From assembly GCA_937976095.1 (NCBI GenBank), contig CALJSV010000256.1, positions 1 to 34,651 of the forward strand: DNA of 34,651 bases, given 5' to 3'. Both the position numbers and the translations under genes were made by a program. The notes beneath the pieces were generated by a model. The model worked only from the letters and a program-made list of their open reading frames with translations. It was not told the origin of the DNA and searched no databases. Shown here piece after piece: positions 3-17,976 of the stretch (positions are counted from its first letter, which is position 1; every line of letters begins with the position of its first letter). The DNA comes from an uncultured Clostridia bacterium (GTDB taxonomy: Bacteria > Bacillota > Clostridia > Lutisporales > Lutisporaceae).

Positions 3-806
3 AAAAACCATATTGACTATATACACCTTAGCAAGCAAAAGAATGTTGTTATAACCACAAGCAATATGATCTGCAATGTCGATTATGATGCAGCCATAAG
101 GTATCATAGGGAATGTGGAGCTGATATAACAATACTATACAAGAATGCCAATGATTGCACCGAAAACTTTACATACTGCAATACATACAATCTGGACGAA
201 AACAACAGAATAACTGGTGTTGATGTCAATCTTGGGAAAAAGAATGAGTGTAATATCTCAATGGAAATGTTTATAATGAGCAAATCGCTTTTCCTGGATA
301 TTATACATACTTGCTCATCAAGGGGAGACTGCGACTTCTTGAAGGATGCTATACATAAGAATATTGACAAGTTTAAAATATACGGCTACGAGTATAACGG
401 CTATTTAGCTTGTGTTAACTCTATACAAAGCTACTTCAAAACCAGTATGCAGCTGTTGGATATAAACCTTTCAAGGGAGCTGTTCTTTAAAAATGGCCTT
501 ATATATACAAAGGTTAAGGATGAGGCTCCGACAAAGTATACTGAAAATGCATTTGTGGAGAATTCACTGATAGCTAACGGCAGCATAATAGATGGAAGCG
601 TTGAAAACAGCATAATATTTAGAGGAGTTAGGGTTAAAAAGGGCGCTGTTGTTAAAAATTGCATAGTAATGCAGAACAGTGTAATAGAAGAGGGTGCATT
701 GCTAAGAAATGTAATACTGGATAAAAATGTTACGGTATCTAAGGATAAACAGCTTAAGGGTGATGAAAGCTATCCTATAGTCATTGAGAAGAAGGCCATA
801 ATTTAG
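3..806 (+). CDS. glgD: GlgD, ADP-glucose pyrophosphorylase regulatory subunit (5'-truncated)
   Basis: This is the C-terminal 267 residues of GlgD, the GlgC-like partner subunit of glucose-1-phosphate adenylyltransferase, which makes ADP-glucose for glycogen synthesis in the cytoplasm. The reading frame is open from the first base of the window, so the start lies upstream; the first internal ATG (position 66) is not the start because homologous sequence precedes it. The visible part holds the end of the nucleotidyltransferase domain (NMICNVDY, then GADITILYK) and a C-terminal left-handed beta-helix made of hexapeptide-like turns (about the last 90 residues, NSLIANGSIIDGSVENSIIF and onward). 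In this family GlgD is usually weakly catalytic or non-catalytic and modulates GlgC; glgC is expected just upstream but is not visible. glgA follows after 17 bp, so the two are co-transcribed. Confidence 0.93.
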   Translation, partial: KNHIDYIHLSKQKNVVITTSNMICNVDYDAAIRYHRECGADITILYKNANDCTENFTYCNTYNLDENNRITGVDVNLGKKNECNISMEMFIMSKSLFLDIIHTCSSRGDCDFLKDAIHKNIDKFKIYGYEYNGYLACVNSIQSYFKTSMQLLDINLSRELFFKNGLIYTKVKDEAPTKYTENAFVENSLIANGSIIDGSVENSIIFRGVRVKKGAVVKNCIVMQNSVIEEGALLRNVILDKNVTVSKDKQLKGDESYPIVIEKKAII

Positions 807-823
807 GAAAAGGAGAGATTGTT

Positions 824-2254
824 ATGAATGTACTTTTTATTGCATCGGAAGTTCATCCTTTTATTAAAACAGGAAGCCTGGGAGATGTAACCTTTTCATT
901 GTCTAGGGAGCTTCGAAAGCTGGGAATAGATGCTCGTGTTATGATACCTAAGTATGGAGATATACCTACTTTTTTTAGAGATAAGATGTCATGTACAAAT
1001 ATATTTAATGTTACAGTTGGTTGGAGAAACCAATACTGTGGGCTTGAAGAGTTAAGATATGAGGGAGCCCCCTTTTACTTTATAGATAATGAGTACTACT
1101 TTAAAAGAGAGGGTATATATGGATTTTTTGATGAAGCTGAAAGATATGCCTTCTTTTGCAAGGCAGCACTAGAGTCTATCCGTTATCTTGATTTTAAGCC
1201 AGACATTATTCACTGCCATGACTGGCAGACTGGTATGATTAGTGTGCTTCTACATGCGCATTATAAAGAGCTCCCGGAGTATAAGGAGCTTAAAACAGTA
1301 TGTACTATCCATGATCTTAAGCATCAGGGTGTATTCCCTAAGGAGATTTTGTGGGAGCTTTTAAACTTGGGAGAAGAGTATTTTACTTTAGATAGAGTAG
1401 AGTTTTTTGGTGGAGTAAGCTTTCTAAAGGGAGCCATAAACTACTCCGATGTGATAACGACACTAAGTAGTGCTTACGCTGCCGAAATTCAGACTCCTTT
1501 ATTCGGTGAGAGTATGGATGATCTTTTTAGAAGAAGAAGAAATGACTTATATGGTATAGTAAACGGCATTGATTATGCCAGCTACGATCCTGCTACAGAC
1601 AGAAGTATTTTTGCAAACTATACTGCAGAAAACCCGGAAATAAAGCACCAAAACAAAGCGAGACTGCAGGAACTTTTAGGACTTGATGTAAATCCTGATG
1701 TGCCAATGATTGCAGTAGTTTCAGAGCTTACAAGGCAAAAAGGCATAGACCTTGTAGCCTATAACCTTGATGAGCTAATGCGTATGGATGTTCAGCTTGT
1801 TGTTCTGGGTAAGGGTGAAGAACAATATGAAAACATTTTAAATGAGTACTCATCAAGGAACTCGACAAAAATGTGCGTCAGCCTGGTTGAGGATGATATA
1901 CTGGCAAGAAAGATTTTTGCTGCTGCAGATTTGTGCCTGAAGCCGTCGCTATTTGAGCCGTGTGGAGCCGGACAGATCATGGGCATGAGGTATGGATGCC
2001 TGCCGATAGTTCGCGAAACTGGAGGGTTAAAGGACACTGTAGCTCCATATAACGAATATACAGGAGAAGGAAATGGATTTAGCTTCTCGCATTATAATGC
2101 AAATGATCTTCTGTATACTATTAAGAGAGCATTGGAAATATATAAGGATAAGAAAAACTGGGAAAGCATAGTCAAATCCGCCATGAAGCAGGATTATAGC
2201 TGGAGGACTTCAGCAATTAAATATAAAAAGCTATATCAGGATTTGACGTTATAG
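824..2254 (+). CDS. glgA: Glycogen synthase (ADP-glucose, GT5)
   Basis: This 476-residue GT5 enzyme transfers glucose from ADP-glucose to the non-reducing end of an alpha-1,4-glucan. It has the two Rossmann-like halves of the family. The N-terminal substrate loop reads KTGSLGDV (residues 15-22), where the family normally has KTGGL. HCHDWQTG and a SELTRQKG segment follow in order. The C-terminal active-site loop is FEPCGAGQIMGMRYG and then RETGGLKDTV. Length is normal for GlgA. An AGGAGAG ribosome site precedes the ATG. The gene lies 17 bp after glgD and 24 bp before glgP, fitting one glycogen operon. The Gly-to-Ser change at residue 18 is unusual, but everything else argues for a working enzyme. 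Confidence 0.96.
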   Translation: MNVLFIASEVHPFIKTGSLGDVTFSLSRELRKLGIDARVMIPKYGDIPTFFRDKMSCTNIFNVTVGWRNQYCGLEELRYEGAPFYFIDNEYYFKREGIYGFFDEAERYAFFCKAALESIRYLDFKPDIIHCHDWQTGMISVLLHAHYKELPEYKELKTVCTIHDLKHQGVFPKEILWELLNLGEEYFTLDRVEFFGGVSFLKGAINYSDVITTLSSAYAAEIQTPLFGESMDDLFRRRRNDLYGIVNGIDYASYDPATDRSIFANYTAENPEIKHQNKARLQELLGLDVNPDVPMIAVVSELTRQKGIDLVAYNLDELMRMDVQLVVLGKGEEQYENILNEYSSRNSTKMCVSLVEDDILARKIFAAADLCLKPSLFEPCGAGQIMGMRYGCLPIVRETGGLKDTVAPYNEYTGEGNGFSFSHYNANDLLYTIKRALEIYKDKKNWESIVKSAMKQDYSWRTSAIKYKKLYQDLTL

Positions 2255-2278
2255 CTCAGGAGCTTAGAGGAGGCTGTT

Positions 2279-4744
2279 ATGAATATTAGCAAGGAAAGAA
2301 TAAAGGAAGATTTTATAAATAAACTTAAGACCTTAAGAGGCTCCAGCCTTGAAAAGGCATCCCTGTCAGATAAATATCTGGCACTGGGAAGTGTTATAAG
2401 AGATTATGTAGCTGATAAATGGGTAATGACAAATGATAGATACCTGGAATCAGGGGAAAAGCAGGTTTACTATTTCTCAATAGAATTCCTCTTAGGGAGG
2501 CTTTTGGGAAATAATCTGGTAAACCTCGGGCTTGAAAAGCTTTGCGAGGATGCTTTAGCAGAGCTTGGTGAATCTCTAAAAGAGATCAAGTCCGCTGAAC
2601 CTGATGCAGGGTTAGGAAATGGCGGCTTGGGAAGGCTTGCTGCATGCTTTCTTGATTCCATGGCTTCTCAGGGGATACCTGGTCATGGCTGTGGAATAAG
2701 ATATAAATATGGGCTCTTTGAGCAAAAGATAATAAATGGCTACCAGGTAGAGCTTCCTGAAAACTGGCTGCGTGAAGGAAATGTCTGGGAGATAAGAAAG
2801 CCAGACAAGGCTGTAGAGGTAAGGTTTGGAGGCCATATATGGTGGGAGGATAATGAAGGAAGGATGACCTTCCATCATGAAAACTACGAATCTGTATTGG
2901 CAGTGCCTTATGATACCCCAATAATTGGATATAAGAACAATACGGTAAATAATCTAAGACTATGGAGTGCCGAAACTCCAATGAAGGACTTTGATTTATC
3001 CTCCTTTAGTCGTGGAGACTATTTAAAGGCTGTGGAGCATAAGTATTCAGTTGAGTCAATATCACAGGTGCTTTACCCTGATGACAGCTATCATGAGGGA
3101 AGAGTACTTAGGCTTAAGCAGCAGTATTTCTTCGTGTCTGCAGGTATTCAAAGCATAATAAGACGCTATAAGCTTGGCGGCCACCCAATAACTGATTTTG
3201 ACGAGAAGGTGGCTATACACATCAATGATACTCATCCTGCAGTTGCTGTGCCTGAGCTTATGAGAATTCTTATGGATGAAGAGGGTCTTAGCTGGGATGA
3301 CGCTTGGAGGATAACCACCAATACAATATCATATACAAACCATACAATCATGTCAGAGGCTCTGGAAAAATGGCCTATAGATATGTTCAAGTCATTGCTG
3401 CCAAGAATATATATGATTGTTGAGGAAATAAATGAAAGGCTTTGCAAGGAGCTATGGATCAGGTACGCTGGAGATTCAGATAGAACAAGCAGAATGGCGA
3501 TAATAGCTGACGGCTATATAAAGATGGCTCATCTTGCGATAATTGGAAGTCATAGCGTAAATGGAGTTGCAAAGCTTCACACTGAGATTCTTAAAAAGCA
3601 GGAACTGGCGGACTTCTACAACTTCCAGCCATATAAGTTTAATAACAAAACAAACGGGATCACTCATAGAAGATGGCTAAGAAAGGCAAATCCGGCTTTG
3701 ACTCAGTTGATAAGAGATACAATAGGCTACGAGTGGATAAGACATCCTACCGAGCTTATAAGACTGCTTAAGCATTCGGAGGATTCAGCCTTCCAGGATA
3801 AGGTGTTTGAAGCCAAGCAAATCAATAAAAAGAGGCTTGCAGATATTATTAAGAATAGATATGATATAACAATAGATACAAATTCTATCTTTGATGTTCA
3901 GATAAAAAGGCTGCACTCCTATAAGAGACAGATACTGAATGTGCTTCATATAATGGATATGTATAACAGGCTGCTTGATAATCCAGACTTGGATATCATA
4001 CCAAGAACCTTCATATTTGGAGCTAAGGCGGCACCTGGCTACTATCTGGCTAAGCAGACTATAAAGCTGATTAATACGCTAGCTGAAAAGATCAATAATG
4101 ATAAGACTATAAAGGATAAGCTAAAAGTAGTCTTTATGGAGGATTATAAGGTATCCCTTGCTGAGAGGATTATACCGGCTGCGGATGTAAGTGAGCAAAT
4201 ATCAACTACAACAAAGGAAGCCTCGGGAACCGGAAACATGAAGCTGATGATGAATGGAGCAGTAACCATTGCAACTTTGGATGGTGCCAACATAGAGATA
4301 AGAGATGAAGTTGGCGATGACAATATTTTTATCTTTGGATTAACAGAGATAGAGGTTATAGACTACTATCGTAATGGCGGATATAATTCAATGGATATTT
4401 ACAGAAATGATCCTAGATTGACGATGATACTGGACCAGCTTGTAAATGGCTTCCTTACCTCAAACAATGTAGAGTTTATGAACATTTATAACTCACTCTT
4501 ACTTCATAATGATGAATATTTCGTGCTTAAGGACTTTGATTCCTATGCAAAGGCACATGCTAGAATCGATGAGTGCTACAGAGACAGGCACAAATGGATG
4601 AGCATGTCTATACACAACATTGCGCATTCAGGAATATTCTCCAGTGACAGAACCATAATGGAATATGCGTCGGGTATTTGGGGAGTTAGAAATGTACCTG
4701 TAGATAAGTATAATGTAAGAATTGAGAAGCCAAAGAGTTATTAG
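2279..4744 (+). CDS. glgP: Glycogen phosphorylase (long form, GT35)
   Basis: This cytoplasmic 821-residue PLP enzyme releases glucose-1-phosphate from glycogen by phosphorolysis. The PLP-lysine motif EASGTGNMKLMMNGA is intact, with Lys655 as the expected Schiff-base residue, followed by TLDGANIEI. The N-terminal region has YFSIEFLLGR and GNGGLGRLAACFLDS, and HINDTHPAVAVPEL and KTNGITHRRWL are in the expected places. Length matches the 800-840 residues of the classical family. The start ATG has an AGAGGAGG site eight bases upstream. It directly follows glgA, so synthesis and breakdown enzymes share a transcript. A second, short-type phosphorylase lies on the other strand at 24966-26576. Confidence 0.97.
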   Translation: MNISKERIKEDFINKLKTLRGSSLEKASLSDKYLALGSVIRDYVADKWVMTNDRYLESGEKQVYYFSIEFLLGRLLGNNLVNLGLEKLCEDALAELGESLKEIKSAEPDAGLGNGGLGRLAACFLDSMASQGIPGHGCGIRYKYGLFEQKIINGYQVELPENWLREGNVWEIRKPDKAVEVRFGGHIWWEDNEGRMTFHHENYESVLAVPYDTPIIGYKNNTVNNLRLWSAETPMKDFDLSSFSRGDYLKAVEHKYSVESISQVLYPDDSYHEGRVLRLKQQYFFVSAGIQSIIRRYKLGGHPITDFDEKVAIHINDTHPAVAVPELMRILMDEEGLSWDDAWRITTNTISYTNHTIMSEALEKWPIDMFKSLLPRIYMIVEEINERLCKELWIRYAGDSDRTSRMAIIADGYIKMAHLAIIGSHSVNGVAKLHTEILKKQELADFYNFQPYKFNNKTNGITHRRWLRKANPALTQLIRDTIGYEWIRHPTELIRLLKHSEDSAFQDKVFEAKQINKKRLADIIKNRYDITIDTNSIFDVQIKRLHSYKRQILNVLHIMDMYNRLLDNPDLDIIPRTFIFGAKAAPGYYLAKQTIKLINTLAEKINNDKTIKDKLKVVFMEDYKVSLAERIIPAADVSEQISTTTKEASGTGNMKLMMNGAVTIATLDGANIEIRDEVGDDNIFIFGLTEIEVIDYYRNGGYNSMDIYRNDPRLTMILDQLVNGFLTSNNVEFMNIYNSLLLHNDEYFVLKDFDSYAKAHARIDECYRDRHKWMSMSIHNIAHSGIFSSDRTIMEYASGIWGVRNVPVDKYNVRIEKPKSY

Positions 4745-4748
4745 TTTA

Positions 4749-4797
4749 GGTGTCAGGGAACAGGTGACAGGTGACAGGTGACAGGTGTCAGGGAACA
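4749..4797. repeat. Degenerate heptamer tandem array (7 units)
   Basis: Forty-nine bases just after the glgP stop divide exactly into seven 7-mers in the order GGTGTCA, GGGAACA, GGTGACA (three times), GGTGTCA, GGGAACA. The array is therefore partly symmetric, with the same two variant units at both ends. It is not in a reading frame of a recognised gene. Its function is unknown; slipped-strand expansion is the simplest origin. Confidence 0.9.
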
Positions 4798-4820
4798 GCT
4801 AGAGAGAATAAGGTGGTGGT

Positions 4821-4852
4821 GAATGTATGTCGGTTTGGTCCGATATACATTC
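4821..4852 (+). terminator. Hairpin between glgP and GH13 gene (possible attenuating terminator)
   Basis: A 13-bp stem (GAATGTATGTCGG pairing with CCGATATACATTC, one G-U pair) with a 6-base loop is followed by ATTTTATATT. The T-run is interrupted, so it may terminate only partly, letting some transcription into the downstream GH13 gene, which has no obvious promoter of its own. Confidence 0.55.
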
Positions 4853-4876
4853 ATTTTATATTAAAAGCAGGGAGAC

Positions 4877-6862
4877 GTGGTCGACTTGAAAAGTGAATTT
4901 ATAAGGCATGACTCACATGATATCAGATATAGAAAGCCCTTTGGGGCGGTCAGCTGTGGTACGGAGGTATGTTTATCTATAGATATCAACACAAGCTTAT
5001 ATATAAGCTATGTAGACTTGCATTTGGTTGCAGAGGATGGCATGGATACAGTATTGAGTATGAGACTTGATTGCACCGAGGGTAGTTTAAAGAAATATAC
5101 TGCGTGCTTTAATGCTTCAGAGCAGCCAGGGCTAATATGGTACTACTTCAAGGCAGGTATAGGGGGAGTGGATTACTTTTATGGCAACAATCAGTTTGCT
5201 TATGGCGGAGCTGGAAGTATTGCAAATCATATACCTGTATACTATCAAATAACAGTATACAAGGATTCGGGGGAAACTCCGGACTGGTATAAGCATGCTA
5301 TTATGTATCAAATATTTCCTGATCGATTCTTCAATGGCAACAAGGATGGGAAAGTAAGCAACCCCAAAAAAAGCAGCTTTGTATACAGCAGCTGGAATGA
5401 CAGCCCATGCTATGTTAAGGACTGCGATACAGGCAGTATTTTAAGGTGGGACTTCTTCGGAGGGAATCTTGAGGGAATAATTCAAAAGCTTGATTATCTA
5501 AAGGAGCTTGGGATAACGGTAATATATCTTAATCCAATTTTTGAATCCCATAGTAATCATAGGTATGACACTGCTGACTATAAAAATGTTGACAATATAC
5601 TCGGAGATAATGAGACCTTTAGGAGGCTTTGTGAAATTGCAAAGGAGCATGGTATATCAATTATTCTTGATGGAGTATTTAGTCATACCGGAAGTGACAG
5701 CATTTATTTTAACAAGTACGGAAGCTACCCTGAGCTTGGGGCATACCAGTCTAATGCGTCAAAATACTACTCATGGTATAGATTTAAAAGCTATCCAAAG
5801 GAATATGAATGCTGGTGGGGTATAGACAATATGCCTAATGTAGATGAAATGAATCCCGCCTACAGACAGTACATAATTAGCGGTGAGGATAGTGTGATAA
5901 AGCACTGGATGAAGCTTGGTGCAAAAGGCTGGAGACTTGATGTAGCAGATGAGCTTCCTGATGCCTTTATCAAAGAAATAAAAGAACACATGAAAAAAAC
6001 TGATAAAGAATCCGTGCTGATAGGTGAGGTTTGGGAGGATGCATCCAATAAAATAAGCTATGGGGAGAGAAGAAGATATCTGATGGGGGAAGAGTTGGAC
6101 TCAGTTATGAACTATCCCTTCAGAAATCATATGATAGATTTTATTTTAGGTCATAAAGCACCCGAGCAGGTAAGTGCAGCACTAATGAGTCTAAAGGAGA
6201 ACTATCCGACCCACAATTTTTATTCTAATATGAATTTTGTTGGTACTCATGATGTTCCCAGAATACTAACCGTACTAGGTGAAGCTCCCGATGAAGGCTA
6301 CATGACCTGGAGGGAAAGGGAAAGCTATCGTCTGAATGAGGCTAGTAAGAGCCTCGCCATAAAAAGACTGAAGCTTATCTCCCTCGTACAGATGACCTTC
6401 CCGGGAGTACCAAGCATATACTATGGGGACGAAGCTGGTCTTGAGGGCTACAAAGATCCTCTCAACAGAAGAACATATCCTTGGGGGAATGAAAACAAAG
6501 AGCTTTTAGATTGGTATAAGACCTTAGTAGCTCTTAGAAAGTCTAAGGATGCCTTCAGCACTGGCGAGTATATACCCCTTTTAGCAGAGGGAGATGTATT
6601 TGCATATATAAGAAGAATTATACACAATAAGGATGCCTTTGGAAAGAAGGCACAGAACGGGACAGCTGTAGTTTTACTGAATAGGAGCAGGGATAAGTCA
6701 ACATCAGTGAAGCTTGACCTAAGCAGCTATGGCAAAGGTGGAAGAATTATAGACTTGCTTGATGAAAGCACAAGCTATGAAGTGCTTGAAGGAGCGGCAG
6801 CTTTTGATTTAAAAGCCCTGGAAGGCAGAGTTCTATTTTGGCAGGTAGGAGAAGATGAATAA
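4877..6862 (+). CDS. Intracellular GH13 alpha-glucan hydrolase, neopullulanase/cyclomaltodextrinase-like
   Basis: A 661-residue GH13 enzyme likely to cleave maltodextrin, cyclodextrin or pullulan-type links in the cytoplasm; no signal peptide is seen. An N-terminal beta-rich domain of about 130 residues (CBM34-like position) precedes the barrel, which begins at WYKHAIMYQIFPDRFFNG. The catalytic triad is visible: nucleophile Asp355 in GWRLDVADEL, acid/base Glu384 in LIGEVWED, and Asp459 in FVGTHDVPR. MNYPFRNHMIDF is typical of the neopullulanase branch. Start choice is uncertain: GTG 4877 lies only three bases after AGGGAG, while in-frame TTG 4886 lies twelve bases after it. The stop overlaps the next start by eight bases. 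Exact bond specificity cannot be read from the sequence. Confidence 0.88.
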   Translation: MVDLKSEFIRHDSHDIRYRKPFGAVSCGTEVCLSIDINTSLYISYVDLHLVAEDGMDTVLSMRLDCTEGSLKKYTACFNASEQPGLIWYYFKAGIGGVDYFYGNNQFAYGGAGSIANHIPVYYQITVYKDSGETPDWYKHAIMYQIFPDRFFNGNKDGKVSNPKKSSFVYSSWNDSPCYVKDCDTGSILRWDFFGGNLEGIIQKLDYLKELGITVIYLNPIFESHSNHRYDTADYKNVDNILGDNETFRRLCEIAKEHGISIILDGVFSHTGSDSIYFNKYGSYPELGAYQSNASKYYSWYRFKSYPKEYECWWGIDNMPNVDEMNPAYRQYIISGEDSVIKHWMKLGAKGWRLDVADELPDAFIKEIKEHMKKTDKESVLIGEVWEDASNKISYGERRRYLMGEELDSVMNYPFRNHMIDFILGHKAPEQVSAALMSLKENYPTHNFYSNMNFVGTHDVPRILTVLGEAPDEGYMTWRERESYRLNEASKSLAIKRLKLISLVQMTFPGVPSIYYGDEAGLEGYKDPLNRRTYPWGNENKELLDWYKTLVALRKSKDAFSTGEYIPLLAEGDVFAYIRRIIHNKDAFGKKAQNGTAVVLLNRSRDKSTSVKLDLSSYGKGGRIIDLLDESTSYEVLEGAAAFDLKALEGRVLFWQVGEDE

Positions 6863-8630
6863 AGACAGTAAGCATTATGAAGCTGGTAGAAGCTTTGAGG
6901 CTGGGATGAATAGTAGTGAGCGAAAGGATAAAGGAGTCTTTTATACACCTCTTGAGATAGTAGATTATATGGCAAGGGAGGCCTTAGCTGAGTTGGATTT
7001 ACTAGAGAATCCATATATTAAGCTCCTTGACCCAGCCTGTGGAGCAGGATATTTTCTTATAAAGTCAATTGAGCTGCTTGAGATAAGGTTCTTAGAGTGC
7101 TTAAGTAAGCTGCTTGAGAAAAAGCCAGAGATTAAAGAGCACCTTGAAAAGAACAATATTAGAAGATACATTGCTGAGAATATTGTATGGGGTGTTGATA
7201 TTGACCCTGCTGCAGTAGAGCTCGCTAAGGCTTCCATCATAGAGTTTGTTGGTATGCCCTGCAAGCCTAATGTTTACTGCTGTGATAGTCTTACTGAGCA
7301 TGAAAGCAGTGGATCAATGCTGTGGAGGCAGAAATACGATTTTATATTGGGGAACCCCCCATATATAGGGCATAAGGGTGTAGATTCCTCATATAAGCTC
7401 CTGCTTCAAGCTCTTTATAAGGGAATATACAAGGATAAATCAGATATTTTGTTTTGCTTCATAAAGAGAGCAATAGATCAATTAAAGCCTGGAGGAGTTT
7501 TGTCTTTCATTTGCTCCAGATATTTGATTGAAGGACCTTCAGCTGATGGTCTTAGAGAATACATCACCGATAATTGTGGGGTGACTGAGATAGTTGATTT
7601 CTGTGGATGCAACGTATTTCAGGATGCAGGTATAGCATCGGCAATTTTTACCTTCAGAAAAGCTGATAAAGCCGAAAGTCTTAATATTAAGGGTCTTAAA
7701 ATTAAGAGCCTTAGAGTTAGGAGATTTAGGAACTCATCAGCTGTATCAAAGAACACAAGTATAATGAATGAAGACAATTTTCACAGCTACAGCATCTCCA
7801 AATCAAGACTTGCAAAAAGTGGCTGGCTGTTGATGGATAATGAAGAGTATGAGATATATGATAAAATCCAGAGCCAAGGAACTCACTTTCTGGCTGAGTT
7901 GTTTGACAGCCATCAGGGTATAATAACCGGATGCGATAAGGCCTTTATTTTAGATGCTGCAGCCATTGAGGCTCATAATATCGAAAGAGAGCTGATTAAG
8001 CCCTGGATAAAAAACAGCAATGTAAAAAAGCATAAGGTTATAGAAGCAAGTCAATTCATTGTGTATGCTGACATGATAGACAATGAAGAGGCATATCCTA
8101 ATTCTATAAGCTATATCAGCAAATACAAAGAAAGGCTTATGCAAAGACGAGAATGTCTAAAGGGAACCAGAGAATGGTACAAGCTTCAATGGGGACGAAG
8201 AGCGGAGGAATTTGAGAGCAAAAAGATTATCTATCCTTATAAGTCAAAGGAAAACAGATTTGCTGTAGATGTAGGTGGGAACTATTGTAGTGCCGATGTA
8301 TACAGCTTGCGTTTGAAAAAGGAGTATGAGGGAAGACTTAGCTATGAACACATTGCTGCAATCCTTAATTCAAAGCCTTTGGAATTTTACTTTAAATCCT
8401 TTGCTAAAAGAATAAATGGAAATCAGTATGATTATTACCCTAATACTGTCCTTAGAATTAGAATTTCAGTTGATACAGTAAACCCCAAGCTTCAGGAGCT
8501 AAGTGCAAAAATAGGCTTCTGTAATAATGAGGCAGATAGAGACGGTATTTTAAGTGATATAAATAGGGTAATATATGATATATATGGACTTTCAGAAAAA
8601 CAAATTATGATTATTGAAAACTACATATGA
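6855..8630 (+). CDS. camA: CamA-like orphan N6-adenine DNA methyltransferase (TaqI/Eco57I type)
   Basis: A 591-residue adenine-specific DNA methyltransferase. The N-terminus has the KGVFYTP signature of TaqI/Eco57I-type enzymes, the SAM-binding motif DPACGAG (residues 59-65), and the catalytic NPPY (167-170) within GNPPYIGHKG. The C-terminal half is a target-recognition region with IITGCDKAFIL, RREC, YKLQWGR, PYKSKENRFAVD and SADVYSL. These C-terminal segments match, as I remember it, the C. difficile sporulation methyltransferase CamA (about 577 residues) far better than ordinary restriction methylases. No nuclease domain is present and no endonuclease gene adjoins it. It overlaps the GH13 stop codon by eight bases and is followed by prsW after 15 bp, so it is translated from the glycogen transcript. 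Methyltransferase identity is firm; CamA orthology and the target site are inference. Confidence 0.82.
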   Translation: MNKDSKHYEAGRSFEAGMNSSERKDKGVFYTPLEIVDYMAREALAELDLLENPYIKLLDPACGAGYFLIKSIELLEIRFLECLSKLLEKKPEIKEHLEKNNIRRYIAENIVWGVDIDPAAVELAKASIIEFVGMPCKPNVYCCDSLTEHESSGSMLWRQKYDFILGNPPYIGHKGVDSSYKLLLQALYKGIYKDKSDILFCFIKRAIDQLKPGGVLSFICSRYLIEGPSADGLREYITDNCGVTEIVDFCGCNVFQDAGIASAIFTFRKADKAESLNIKGLKIKSLRVRRFRNSSAVSKNTSIMNEDNFHSYSISKSRLAKSGWLLMDNEEYEIYDKIQSQGTHFLAELFDSHQGIITGCDKAFILDAAAIEAHNIERELIKPWIKNSNVKKHKVIEASQFIVYADMIDNEEAYPNSISYISKYKERLMQRRECLKGTREWYKLQWGRRAEEFESKKIIYPYKSKENRFAVDVGGNYCSADVYSLRLKKEYEGRLSYEHIAAILNSKPLEFYFKSFAKRINGNQYDYYPNTVLRIRISVDTVNPKLQELSAKIGFCNNEADRDGILSDINRVIYDIYGLSEKQIMIIENYI

Positions 8631-8645
8631 AAAGGTGGGATTGGT

Positions 8646-9326
8646 TTGCTTTTGCTGGCAGCTGCTGTAGCTCCATCTATAGCTTTAATGTACTACTTTT
8701 ACATGAGAGATAAATATGAGCGGGAACCAAGACGTATGCTGATTAAGGCATTTATTGCGGGTATGATAATTATACTGCCTGTGCTTATTGTTGAGGTGTA
8801 TCTTAATATTTTTGATATGCCAACAAGGAACTTTTTTAAGATTGGTTACACTGCTTTTATTGTGGCTGGTCTTGTTGAGGAGACTTTTAAGTATCTGGCC
8901 TTTGTGTTGTATATATGGAAGGACAGAGAGTTTAACGAAGCCTATGATGCAATAGTATACTGTGTTTTTATTTCTTTAGGCTTTGCTACTATAGAAAACA
9001 TTGCATATGTGCTTGCAACGGGCTTTAACACCGCCCTTTTAAGATCGCTTACTGCCGTGCCGGCTCATGCTCTCTTTGCAGTATCCATGGGCTATTATCT
9101 TGGTATAGCAAAGTTCTCCAAACAGCCTAAGCGGCAGTATTATATGAAGCTTGGCTTGTTTGTTCCGGTAGTTCTGCATGGCATTTATGACTTTATACTT
9201 TTTTCCAAAAGAACCTATCTGTTAGTACTCTTTATACCTTATATGCTTTACCTTTGGAGAAGGGGTCTTAAAAATGTTGATGAGCTTATTGAGACTTCAC
9301 CATATAAAGAGAACGATTCAAAATAA
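8646..9326 (+). CDS. prsW: PrsW-family intramembrane metalloprotease
   Basis: A 226-residue polytopic membrane protein with the PrsW/CPBP-like motif set: EETFK (Glu78-Glu79), FATIEN (Glu117), a helix with His141 (PAHALFA) and HGIYD (His178). About seven hydrophobic segments are visible. B. subtilis PrsW makes the first cut in an anti-sigma factor during envelope stress; whether this copy has such a substrate is unknown, and no sigma/anti-sigma pair is in the window. Translation begins at TTG 8646 after an AAGGTGGGA site, since the hydrophobic N-terminus starts immediately. It is the last gene of the glg-camA transcript, ahead of a bidirectional terminator. Confidence 0.85.
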   Translation: MLLLAAAVAPSIALMYYFYMRDKYEREPRRMLIKAFIAGMIIILPVLIVEVYLNIFDMPTRNFFKIGYTAFIVAGLVEETFKYLAFVLYIWKDREFNEAYDAIVYCVFISLGFATIENIAYVLATGFNTALLRSLTAVPAHALFAVSMGYYLGIAKFSKQPKRQYYMKLGLFVPVVLHGIYDFILFSKRTYLLVLFIPYMLYLWRRGLKNVDELIETSPYKENDSK

Positions 9327-9333
9327 GAGATAA

Positions 9334-9367
9334 AAAAGCGGCAATAGACTAGTTTATTGCCGCTTTT
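9334..9367. terminator. Bidirectional terminator between prsW and COG3581-like gene
   Basis: A perfect 13-bp stem, AAAAGCGGCAATA and its complement, with an 8-base loop ends in T-runs on both strands. The stop codon of the minus-strand gene lies inside the loop, so the signal serves both convergent transcripts. Confidence 0.88.
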
Positions 9368-10446
9368 GCTTGCTCTCTACCACCACTTATATAGTCAACG
9401 AAGGCTTCCAATCTTGTGACATAGCCTGCTTCACCGGTTTGCTCATCCACTATGAGGGATAGTATAGGGATATTATAATCCTTTTCTATTTGAGGAAGTA
9501 TAGAGCGAGACACTATTTCAGGCATACAGGTCATTGGATATATTTGCACCAGCCCATCATATCCATGCTTTGCATATTGAATAGCATGAGCAATGCATTG
9601 CTGAGCGTGCCCGCCTATTAGGGCAGGAAGATACGGCTTGGATAGACGTTTTTCCTTAGTATAAGGCTTTCTGCCGGTTACCGGCCTTACTATAGTGTTG
9701 TCTGCCCAATCCTTTACTGTCATAGACCTGTGTACTTCAATACCCAGCTCGCCAAGTTTTTCTTCTGTCTCAAGATTGGAGAAGGGCTCAATAATAGTGT
9801 AGATTTCGCCTATAATGCCGATCTTTAAGGGTTCAAAGCTTGTATCAAGCTCAATAGCCTTGAGCTTATTTACGGTATCTCTGATAAGCTCAGTAATCTG
9901 TGCTGAGCCCTTAACATTCACTATATTACTTCTAAAGCTATGGGTAATTGCCTTTACCTGTGATTTATTTATGGCACGTGGTCTTATGTAGTAAACCAGC
10001 TCATTCATTTTATCTATTTCACAGCAAACCTTGTAACCGGCACGAAGTGCGCGGATTGGAGCAATAAATCTTCCTCCTGTTATTCTTGCTATGGAGCTTA
10101 TGAATTTTTTGAAATCTTCACCAGGAGAATCAAGAATTATAAATTCTACATCCTTATAGCCTGCATCCTCAAGAATCTGCTTTTGTATGGGCCCATAATA
10201 GCCGAATCTACAGGGGCCGCAGCTGCCTGTAATGATTATTGTATCTGCACCACTTTTTATTGCATTTATGTAATTGCCCAGCATAATTTTAAAGGGTAGG
10301 CAGATGCTTTCCGGGGATAGCTTTGAACCAAGCTGCATTGTTGCCTTGGTTGTATACGCGGGTACAATGCTTTCTACACCGATATCATCAAGCACAGCCT
10401 TAATAGCTATGTACGCTTCGCCCATATGAGGATATGTTATTATCAT
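9349..10446 (-). CDS. 2-hydroxyacyl-CoA dehydratase/activase-related protein (COG3581-like)
   Basis: A 365-residue soluble protein resembling the HgdB-fold family related to 2-hydroxyacyl-CoA dehydratases (COG3581 type). Cysteines are placed as in Fe-S binding members: SICLPFK (Cys49) and GSCGPCRFGYY (Cys76, Cys79), with later GGHAQQCIAHA and TCMPE; glycines and prolines around them are conserved-looking. The reaction is not known for this family. The start ATG has a GGAGG site that lies inside the 3' end of the upstream gene; the two coding regions overlap by 47 bp, so they are tightly coupled. An ATPase activase (COG1924) usually accompanies or is fused to these proteins but is absent here. 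Confidence 0.75.
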   Translation of the reverse strand: MIITYPHMGEAYIAIKAVLDDIGVESIVPAYTTKATMQLGSKLSPESICLPFKIMLGNYINAIKSGADTIIITGSCGPCRFGYYGPIQKQILEDAGYKDVEFIILDSPGEDFKKFISSIARITGGRFIAPIRALRAGYKVCCEIDKMNELVYYIRPRAINKSQVKAITHSFRSNIVNVKGSAQITELIRDTVNKLKAIELDTSFEPLKIGIIGEIYTIIEPFSNLETEEKLGELGIEVHRSMTVKDWADNTIVRPVTGRKPYTKEKRLSKPYLPALIGGHAQQCIAHAIQYAKHGYDGLVQIYPMTCMPEIVSRSILPQIEKDYNIPILSLIVDEQTGEAGYVTRLEAFVDYISGGREQAKAAIN

Positions 10447-11416
10447 CAGTCAACCTCCAATCCAATAAGCTCTTAAAAGCCTCTAGTCGGGTATTATATC
10501 CAGCATCTCCCGTATGCTCATCTAAGCTCAGAATAATAAAGGGCTTACTGTAGGTTTTTCTTGCAATGCTCTCAATATATTCTACAGCCAGAGAATCAAT
10601 ACCGCAGCCAAAGGCAGTCATAAGCAGAAGACCGTCTATATTGGAGTTATCCATCATATATAGTGCTCCGCCTATAAGAGATTTTCCGCTGCTCCAAAAC
10701 ATTCTCTTAGAAAGCTCGTTGCAGCGTTCATTAATAATATGAGGATCAACCATTTCAGGAGTTACAAAGCGTATTCCCCAATCCTCAAGCTTTTTAAATA
10801 GCTTCATGTTTACAAAGCTATCATAGATAAGGTATGGATGACCTATAACCCCGATAGTATGATTGCCTTCGATTTTGTTTTTTGCAGCTGCGCCATTAAT
10901 CAGCTGGTTTGGAGTATTGCCTTCAAAAACCTTAGATTTAAAGCTGTGATGTTCAGCTAAAGCTTTATTATAAGCATTGTTCAGTCTTAACGGGTTTTTG
11001 ATTTTTAAAGCACTGCCAAGCTTAAATAAGGCCTTCTTTAGATCCTTTTGGCTTCTGTGCAGGTTAACCTCTGTATCAATAAGCGGAGGAAGATCCGGAA
11101 CAGAGTACTTAACCATTTCGGGCAAGCCTCCGAATTTAGGACATATATATTCTTTTTGCGATACACTGGTTAGTCTTGGAACTAATATAAAGTCAGTATT
11201 ATCTCTAAGCTTGTAGGCATGACCATGATAAACCTTTACAGGTAAGCAGGCGTCATCGATGCAAAACTTAACTCCACTATCCAAAATCTCCTTTGTAGTT
11301 TCCGGGGAAGGAACCACCTCTGCGCCAAGCTCCTCTAAGAAGGTTTTTGCAAAGGGATAATATTTATAAAAGTACATTCCTCTAGGAATGCCGACACGTA
11401 CTGGCAAACACATCAC
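10400..11416 (-). CDS. CoA-enzyme activase-related protein (DUF2229/COG3580-like)
   Basis: A 338-residue protein of the DUF2229/COG3580 group, the usual partner of COG3581 proteins. It opens with VGIPRGMYFYKYYPFAKTF, typical of the family, and carries CIDDACLPVK (Cys52, Cys57), ICPKFGGLPEM (Cys92) and AFGCGIDSL as candidate Fe-S ligands. Function is uncharacterised; family logic suggests an ATP- and Fe-S-dependent radical-type system. Translation starts at GTG 11416 or the adjoining ATG 11413; the AGAGG site fits the ATG slightly better. It is first in a two-gene operon with the COG3581-like gene. Confidence 0.75.
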   Translation of the reverse strand: MMCLPVRVGIPRGMYFYKYYPFAKTFLEELGAEVVPSPETTKEILDSGVKFCIDDACLPVKVYHGHAYKLRDNTDFILVPRLTSVSQKEYICPKFGGLPEMVKYSVPDLPPLIDTEVNLHRSQKDLKKALFKLGSALKIKNPLRLNNAYNKALAEHHSFKSKVFEGNTPNQLINGAAAKNKIEGNHTIGVIGHPYLIYDSFVNMKLFKKLEDWGIRFVTPEMVDPHIINERCNELSKRMFWSSGKSLIGGALYMMDNSNIDGLLLMTAFGCGIDSLAVEYIESIARKTYSKPFIILSLDEHTGDAGYNTRLEAFKSLLDWRLTDDNNISSYGRSVHSY

Positions 11417-16892: not shown

Positions 16893-16940
16893 CTAAATAA
16901 AGAGCAGTCAGGGCTTTTGTCCTGACTGCTCTTTATTTAG
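16893..16940. terminator. Bidirectional terminator between ABC exporter and gerQ
   Basis: A perfect 20-bp stem (16893-16912 with 16921-16940) and an 8-base loop containing TTTT. T-rich tails on both strands come from the TTTATTTAG ends. It overlaps the gerQ stop codon. Confidence 0.88.
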
Positions 16941-17515
16941 TAGTAGAATCTTACGAATTTAATTGAGTATATATCACATAGTAAGTGGTCATCTGTATCT
17001 ACTTCTTGAATTATTATATAGCTTACTCCTACATCTAAAAGAGTACCTTCTCTGTCCATAAACATATTTGTGCCTATTAAAAACTCAACCTTTACCCTTT
17101 GACCGATTTGAGTCCTTAAGTAGCCTTGAGTATATTCGATATCCATAATTGGAGTTTGTGTAAGTGCTTGGAAGTCTAAAGGTCCAGCACCGGATGTTAG
17201 AGGCATAGCGCCTATGCCTGTGGGCATAGTGCCTGCTGTGCCTGGGAAGTCAACAGTAGGTATTGGCGGCATGCCTGTCATACCTGTTATTGAGGTTGGT
17301 GGGGGCTGCATGGTTGCTGTCATGGGCAGTCCAGCTCCTGCCATAGGCATGACGGGCTGCTTAGCATGGTGTGGCATATTAGCAGTTGCTTGATATGGCA
17401 TATTAGCTGCTGCCTGATATGGCATATTAGCTGTTGTTTGTTGTGTTACATTTGGCATTGGACTTGCTTGATTGGCAAGCATGTTTGCATAGTTATAAGG
17501 ATTATTGCAGTACAT
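16937..17515 (-). CDS. gerQ: Spore coat protein GerQ-like
   Basis: A 192-residue protein. The C-terminal 75 residues (YTQGYLRTQIGQRVKVEF to DHLLCDIYSIKFVRFYY) match the GerQ domain, including a small beta-rich core. The N-terminal half is low-complexity, rich in Met, Pro, Ala, Gly and Gln, with three ANMPYQA-type repeats (about residues 29-52). In Bacillus GerQ is a coat protein needed to place the cortex hydrolase CwlJ on the spore. Here it lies 17 bp downstream of a CwlJ-like gene, the same gene order as in Bacillus, which strongly supports the call. Expression would be expected in the mother cell during sporulation. Confidence 0.83.
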   Translation of the reverse strand: MYCNNPYNYANMLANQASPMPNVTQQTTANMPYQAAANMPYQATANMPHHAKQPVMPMAGAGLPMTATMQPPPTSITGMTGMPPIPTVDFPGTAGTMPTGIGAMPLTSGAGPLDFQALTQTPIMDIEYTQGYLRTQIGQRVKVEFLIGTNMFMDREGTLLDVGVSYIIIQEVDTDDHLLCDIYSIKFVRFYY

Positions 17516-17532
17516 AGTATTCTCCTTTCAAA

Positions 17533-17976
17533 TTAAGTACTATAGTATAGTTTTGTTGGAAGATAGAAGCAGTGGTCACCTACTCTGTTTGCAAAGCTTC
17601 CAACACCATTTCTTGGGAAAACCTGTGGACAGGTAGGAATAAATGGATTGAAGTACCAAAGGCAGTAACCGACTGACAGCATTTTATTACCTGACATAGC
17701 CCAATCAGCAATATCAAAGTGCATCTGTTCAGGTGGGTTAGCCCATATGGTTTGCGGGTTTGGGACACCTCTTAGCACAGAAGTCATGCAGTCAAACTGC
17801 CCTCTTTGATTAAGAACGTTTCTGATATTTCCCTGGCCAATTCTTTGGTATTCACCGTTAGGCACATTTACTCTGTTCATTATTACTGTCGCTACAGCCT
17901 TCATGCCATTTTCGCCTTCGCCACCTGCTTCGCATCTTATTACTCTTGCCAGCAGCTCTCTTTCCGAATATGCCAC
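17533..17976 (-). CDS. cwlJ: Spore cortex-lytic cell wall hydrolase CwlJ-like
   Basis: A 147-residue hydrolase of the SleB/CwlJ catalytic family that degrades cortex peptidoglycan during germination. RVIRCEAGGEGENGMKAVATVIMNRV carries the expected catalytic Glu16, and FDCMTS and WANPPEQMHFDIADWAMSG follow in family order. No signal peptide or peptidoglycan-binding repeat is present, as expected for CwlJ rather than SleB. Translation starts at GTG 17976 after GAGAGGTG. The gerQ-like gene follows immediately. Confidence 0.88.
   Translation of the reverse strand: MAYSERELLARVIRCEAGGEGENGMKAVATVIMNRVNVPNGEYQRIGQGNIRNVLNQRGQFDCMTSVLRGVPNPQTIWANPPEQMHFDIADWAMSGNKMLSVGYCLWYFNPFIPTCPQVFPRNGVGSFANRVGDHCFYLPTKLYYST

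Follow-up and report, generated by a model that had tools for sequence, protein, structure and literature searches.

Among proteins of solved structure, the one most similar to the protein considered here is CamA (CD2758) of Clostridioides difficile, which tunes the formation of spores in that species and for which a CamA-DNA structure has given 15 residues touching the bases of the target CAAAAA (PMC8187626). One site, Me3, drives sporulation in C. difficile (PMC13395437). In papers up to July 2026, CamA has been called C. difficile-specific and hence argued to be a selective drug target. A related motif, CAAAAAR, is known from other species. Awo_c14460 of Acetobacterium woodii, cloned alone in Escherichia coli, methylates it at position 6 (PMC6700114); CAAAAAR has been reported in many Clostridium species, with a function common to it and the C. 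difficile motif already suggested (PMC10745947), and Clostridium carboxidivorans and C. cadaveris have a CRAAAAR motif. A literature search that covered a minority of subscription papers, and not Oliveira et al. (2020), found no paper joining CamA to the CAAAAAR enzymes by sequence. To the wider motif, which is already known, the present analysis adds a description of the family, with its characteristic residues, distribution and loci.

The window is the whole stretch analysed, 34,651 nucleotides of a contig (CALJSV010000256.1) from an uncultured Clostridia bacterium of the Lutisporaceae. It carries a methyltransferase gene (Table 1) whose reading frame is intact and begins with ATG, with AGGAGA close on its 5′ side. 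The protein matches the Pfam families Eco57I (1.5e-25), N6_Mtase (1e-18) and TaqI_C (1.2e-10), and a Pfam search of its 591 residues found no nuclease domain, in agreement with the initial annotation, which had read it as a TaqI/Eco57I-type enzyme without one. NPPY together with a TaqI-like recognition domain places it in the gamma class of N6-adenine methyltransferases. Terminator-like hairpins lie before the amylase gene (4818-4855) and after prsW (9334-9367); flanking both ends, they suggest co-transcription, and the amylase gene, the methyltransferase gene and prsW probably form a single transcript.

Table 1. Features of the methyltransferase gene and its immediate neighbours in the window
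Feature	Position	Strand	Basis
CamA-family orphan N6-adenine DNA methyltransferase, 591 aa	6855..8630	+	ORF, alignment, Pfam, tree
Ribosome-binding site AGGAGA	6847..6852	+	direct reading
Catalytic motif IV NPPY, residues 167-170	7353..7364	+	aligned with CamA N165-Y168
Target-recognition domain, about residues 327-591 (CamA 320-577)	7833..8627	+	Pfam and CamA alignment
N521 and Q524 (CamA S514 and I517)	8415..8426	+	CamA alignment
Alpha-amylase-family gene, 8-base overlap with the methyltransferase start	4877..6862	+	
PrsW-type intramembrane protease (prsW), 15 bases past the methyltransferase stop	8646..9326	+	

The surroundings hold further genes. Over positions 66-9326, glgD, glgA, glgP and the amylase gene are followed by the methyltransferase gene, and this glycogen cluster also lies 5′ of it in genera g1 and g5 and part of g2 of the host family, not in g3 and g6. 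On the minus strand, two DUF2229/HGD-D type genes (CoA-enzyme activase-like; 9349-11416) are retained after prsW in several genera, and a gene for a SleB/CwlJ-like cell wall hydrolase (16937-17976) adjoins one for a protein without family match, whose C-terminus we take to be GerQ-like; these two are probable spore-germination genes. The motif itself occurs in the window at near expectation (CAAAAA, 24 observed and 20.8 expected; TTTTTG, 36 and 31.0).

Among all PDB sequences, C. difficile CamA was the best match to the window protein (E 2e-122, 412.6 bits, residues 10-553), and M.BseCI the second (2e-26, 95.7 bits). The best PADLOC model was a 577-position type II methyltransferase (2.8e-126). 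Identity to CamA is 41% across 528 aligned amino acids. The initial annotation had noted a likeness to CamA in four segments, and the likeness is near letter-for-letter: NPPYIGHK, ITGCDKAFIL and LQWGR recur unchanged, and PYKSKENRF corresponds to PYKSNENRF. When the base-contact residues were mapped onto the window protein through the CamA alignment (PMC8187626), 13 of the 15 proved identical (R425, W439, R441, Q438, Q346, I349, H171, Y521, S472, A473, K172, Y455 and K456 in CamA numbering), those inside the recognition domain being Q354, I357, R432, Q445, W446, R448, Y462, K463, S479, A480 and Y528 of the window protein. Every listed contact to C1, A2, A3, A4, T5 and their partners is unchanged. 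The two that differ, N521 for S514 and Q524 for I517, both lie at the rearranged A5:T6 pair. Both positions vary among other members too, and thus were not used to define the family; as the N521/Q524 pair is absent from all other homologs aligned, the enzyme may depart from CamA at the edge of its motif. In the target-adenine pocket, N165, P166, Y168 and F253 of CamA are kept and Y30 is replaced by F29; the three SAM aspartates are kept, and S62 of motif I is replaced by A61. An AlphaFold2 model computed with the window protein and four C. difficile homologs was discarded (pLDDT 37).

The contact residues separate this group from its neighbours. Ten other TaqI_C proteins from Clostridia have 0-4 of the 15, M.BseCI has none, and the divergent relatives L055-L057 have 8-9. 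In an alignment of 49 CamA-type rows, mean conservation is 94% at the contact positions and 50% over the full set of columns; in 20,000 random draws of 15 columns the contact value was never reached. By this specificity and conservation, the contact signature is diagnostic of a family, and it occupies some of the most conserved columns in the protein. In the tree, too, the CamA-type rows split from other TaqI_C enzymes (SH-aLRT 99) with the window protein on the CamA side; three divergent rows with 8-9 of the 15 contacts nest within. The window enzyme belongs to an 11-member host-family clade, f1A (100/100), and, by its place in the tree, is a separate CamA-family lineage of which CamA is not the closest relative. 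Grouping within the family follows the host family (f40, 100/100; f54, 100/99; f22, 100/100), with a support of just 76/97 for f58, which holds C. difficile, and f45 not forming one group. The host family itself has two methyltransferase lineages, f1A and f1B, the second of which occurs in genera g4 and g7. Monophyly of all copies in the host family was rejected (AU p 0.0014), which implies that an old transfer, or the loss of a paralog, took place there at least once.

The same family takes in the CAAAAAR enzymes. The homolog L045 maps to 1.68 Mb on a chromosome of 4,044,777 bases, where Awo_c14460 is expected, and is presumed to be that enzyme; L046 is 51% identical to it, which fits the 48.9% reported for Eubacterium limosum (PMC9503626). 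With both CamA and CAAAAAR enzymes within one family, a CAAAAA target can be predicted for the window enzyme. Its kinship with CamA and a probable CAAAAA target are well supported, and we put the probability of an orphan CamA-family methyltransferase with this predicted target at about 0.87.

How far does the family extend? CamA-type methyltransferases were found in 17 of 22 species and all 7 genera of the host family, and in 59 of 71 species and 19 of 23 genera of f58. The latter was recognised as the family of C. difficile by near-identical CamA copies; f54 and f40 were assigned by inference only, f40 being probably Clostridiaceae. Of the contacts, 13-15 are retained in the 28 f58 loci examined, whose identity to CamA is 48-100%. 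A class sample of 391 genomes, with almost the whole host family among them, gave matches in 53, about 47 of them counted as CamA-type, and a phylum sample of 398 genomes gave none outside Clostridia at E 1e-40. The CamA family thereby looks Clostridia-wide and not peculiar to C. difficile. The expectation of a CamA relative outside that species was borne out by the full-length match, the 13 shared contacts and the position in the CamA-family clade. The base-reading residues of CamA recur in most species of C. difficile's family and in many further families of Clostridia. Judged on sequence, neither the enzyme family nor these residues are specific to C. difficile, contrary to what has been published.

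Some copies in C. difficile's family are aberrant. One CamA-type gene (G787:C4:73042-74742) is full of stop codons, and those of G801, G803 and G838 have many stops or are in pieces, which suggests that the gene is dispensable there or that the assemblies are broken. In genera g492 and g493 of the same family, CamA-type proteins have long open frames (L188-L190, L192, L195 and L197); three of four measured carry a C-terminal extension of about 200-230 aa, in which no Pfam domain was found (tested on L190).

Each host family keeps the gene in a place of its own. In f1A, prsW comes next wherever the contig reaches the downstream gene. Members in f58 have an amidase or EAL gene on one side and HPr-PtsI on the other, a placement that persists down to 40% identity, and those of f54, f45 and f73 lie 5′ of an MgsA-type AAA ATPase gene, mostly also with an M16C peptidase gene. 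In f40 (L075, L078 and L082-L088), the methyltransferase gene stands upstream, on the same strand, of STAS, HATPase and sigma genes at all nine testable loci; representatives matched the spoIIAA, spoIIAB and sigF equivalogs above cut-off, and spoVA genes follow sigF in most. The gaps are 77-1438 bases long, with another gene inside some of them. As f40 is one clade, this linkage counts as one evolutionary event, not nine.

Such constancy bears on a rival reading of the enzyme as the methylating partner in a type II restriction-modification system, or as a type IIG remnant. The fold is common to such enzymes, and PADLOC gave weaker matches to type IIG models. However, a fixed chromosomal position per family is unlike that of mobile restriction-modification systems, and the protein is free of any nuclease domain. 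The open reading frames of the window (34 kb) include none recognised as a restriction gene, and the initial annotation had likewise seen no partner there; nor does a nuclease occur among the recurrent neighbours that were checked across several host families. A restriction origin of this kind is thus very improbable. No second TaqI_C protein was found in the genome, and in this context the enzyme is an orphan; the genome being 80% complete, a restriction partner at a distance is conceivable. As for specific candidates, a type IIG restriction enzyme was rejected with no fused nuclease domain and only 591 aa, BREX PglX with 74 bits against a curated cut-off of 500, and MADS MAD2 with 61 bits against 720.

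A closer contender is a CamA-type enzyme whose target is shifted or relaxed (e.g., to CAAAAAR or CRAAAAR, or with positions 5-7 altered) owing to N521/Q524. That pair is unique, the enzymes of the A. woodii/E. limosum type (CAAAAAR) have G514/L517 where CamA (CAAAAA) has S514/I517, and CRAAAAR in C. carboxidivorans and C. cadaveris shows a variant motif. Yet all remaining contacts are unchanged, other members of the window's clade keep S514 like CamA (L007, for instance, has S514/L517), and S514 and I517 touch A5:T6, not base 7 (PMC8187626), so the relation between residues 514/517 and R at position 7 is a correlation only. We consider a shifted target a minority possibility; the different target raised in the initial annotation is not favoured, with the residues reading CAAAA intact and just two at A5:T6 altered, and an unshifted CAAAAA target remains the preferred reading.

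What would such a mark be used for? spoIIE is present in the window genome (G000:C230); spo0A, present in 18 of 22 family members, was not found in its 80%-complete assembly. The spoIIE promoter has a conserved TGACAAA, presumed to be a Spo0A box, 5′ of a −10-like element. In the window genome this box reads TGACAAAAAATTC; the same site (L100), lying some 254 bases 5′ of the spoIIE match, is listed as CCTGACAAAAAATTC, and a CAAAAA there shares bases with the putative Spo0A box. At the equivalent position the Clostridioides relative G309 has TGACAAAAAAAA, which is taken to correspond to Me3 of C. difficile. Other host-family carriers, including the genus-mate G007, have TGACAAATATT-like boxes without the CAAAAA site, and four genomes without the methyltransferase carry it. 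Presence of the enzyme and of CAAAAA in the spoIIE box is not associated (about 4 of 18 carriers and 4 of 13 non-carriers), and among 32 carriers of CamA-type enzymes from families other than the host's, 13 lack SpoIIE, the presumed A. woodii being one of them; sporulation would therefore be at most one use of the mark.

The main job may instead be a general one, in metabolism, envelope stress, replication or repair, with the sporulation role a C. difficile elaboration. The carriers lacking SpoIIE and the host-family carriers lacking the site speak for this, as do the local partners of the gene, an amylase gene and prsW instead of sporulation genes, and the CamA effect in mice, which is largely separate from sporulation (PMC13395437). 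Against it stand the spoIIAA-spoIIAB-sigF linkage of f40 and the spoIIE site of the window genome itself, and we hold the odds to be about even. The sigF-operon linkage elsewhere and CAAAAA in this spoIIE promoter are suggestive of a sporulation role; such a role in this organism, through spoIIE and sigma-F, is possible, though we lean against it. Less probable still, and in our view unlikely, is that CAAAAA methylation by CamA-type enzymes forms an ancient Clostridia-wide epigenetic layer on sporulation entry via sigma-F, seen at spoIIE in C. difficile, as sigF-operon linkage in Clostridiaceae-like species and at the presumed spoIIE Spo0A box here.

Homology, residue conservation, orphan context, clade and distribution are established by computation. 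The activity and the regulatory role, as we infer them, would be as follows. DNA would be bound in the cleft between the N-terminal catalytic and C-terminal recognition domains, the target adenine would be squeezed out of the DNA, and the last A of CAAAAA would be methylated on one strand, genome-wide. Methylated promoters may then be used differently by regulators such as Spo0A, or by RNA polymerase. From its chromosomal place between the amylase gene and prsW and its inheritance with the host lineage, the enzyme is probably a domesticated regulator and not half of a restriction system. The family joins two rarely linked literatures, that on CamA and that on the CAAAAAR motif of Clostridium and acetogens; CamA biology becomes open to study in laboratory species that are harmless, and a CamA inhibitor could also hit other gut Clostridia.

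Among known systems, M.BseCI belongs to a restriction system. This type II enzyme (ATCGAT; PDB 7QW5) is, like the window protein, a gamma-class methyltransferase with a TaqI-like recognition domain, but has 0 of the 15 CamA base contacts. CamA (PDB 7LNI, 7LT5 and 8CXZ) is like the window protein in domain order, length (577 against 591 aa), target-adenine pocket and orphan status, and differs in having S514/I517, Y30 and S62 in place of N521/Q524, F29 and A61, and in a locus running from amidase/EAL to HPr-PtsI instead of from amylase to prsW; in the tree it is not the nearest relative. The CAAAAAR methyltransferases of A. woodii (Awo_c14460), E. limosum, Clostridium pasteurianum and others, which place m6A on the sixth base and need R at base 7, share the family of the window enzyme. 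L045, the presumed Awo_c14460, is 34% identical to the window protein, has G514/L517 and adjoins the gene of an MgsA-type AAA ATPase and that of an M16C peptidase, whereas its core contacts are those of the window protein.
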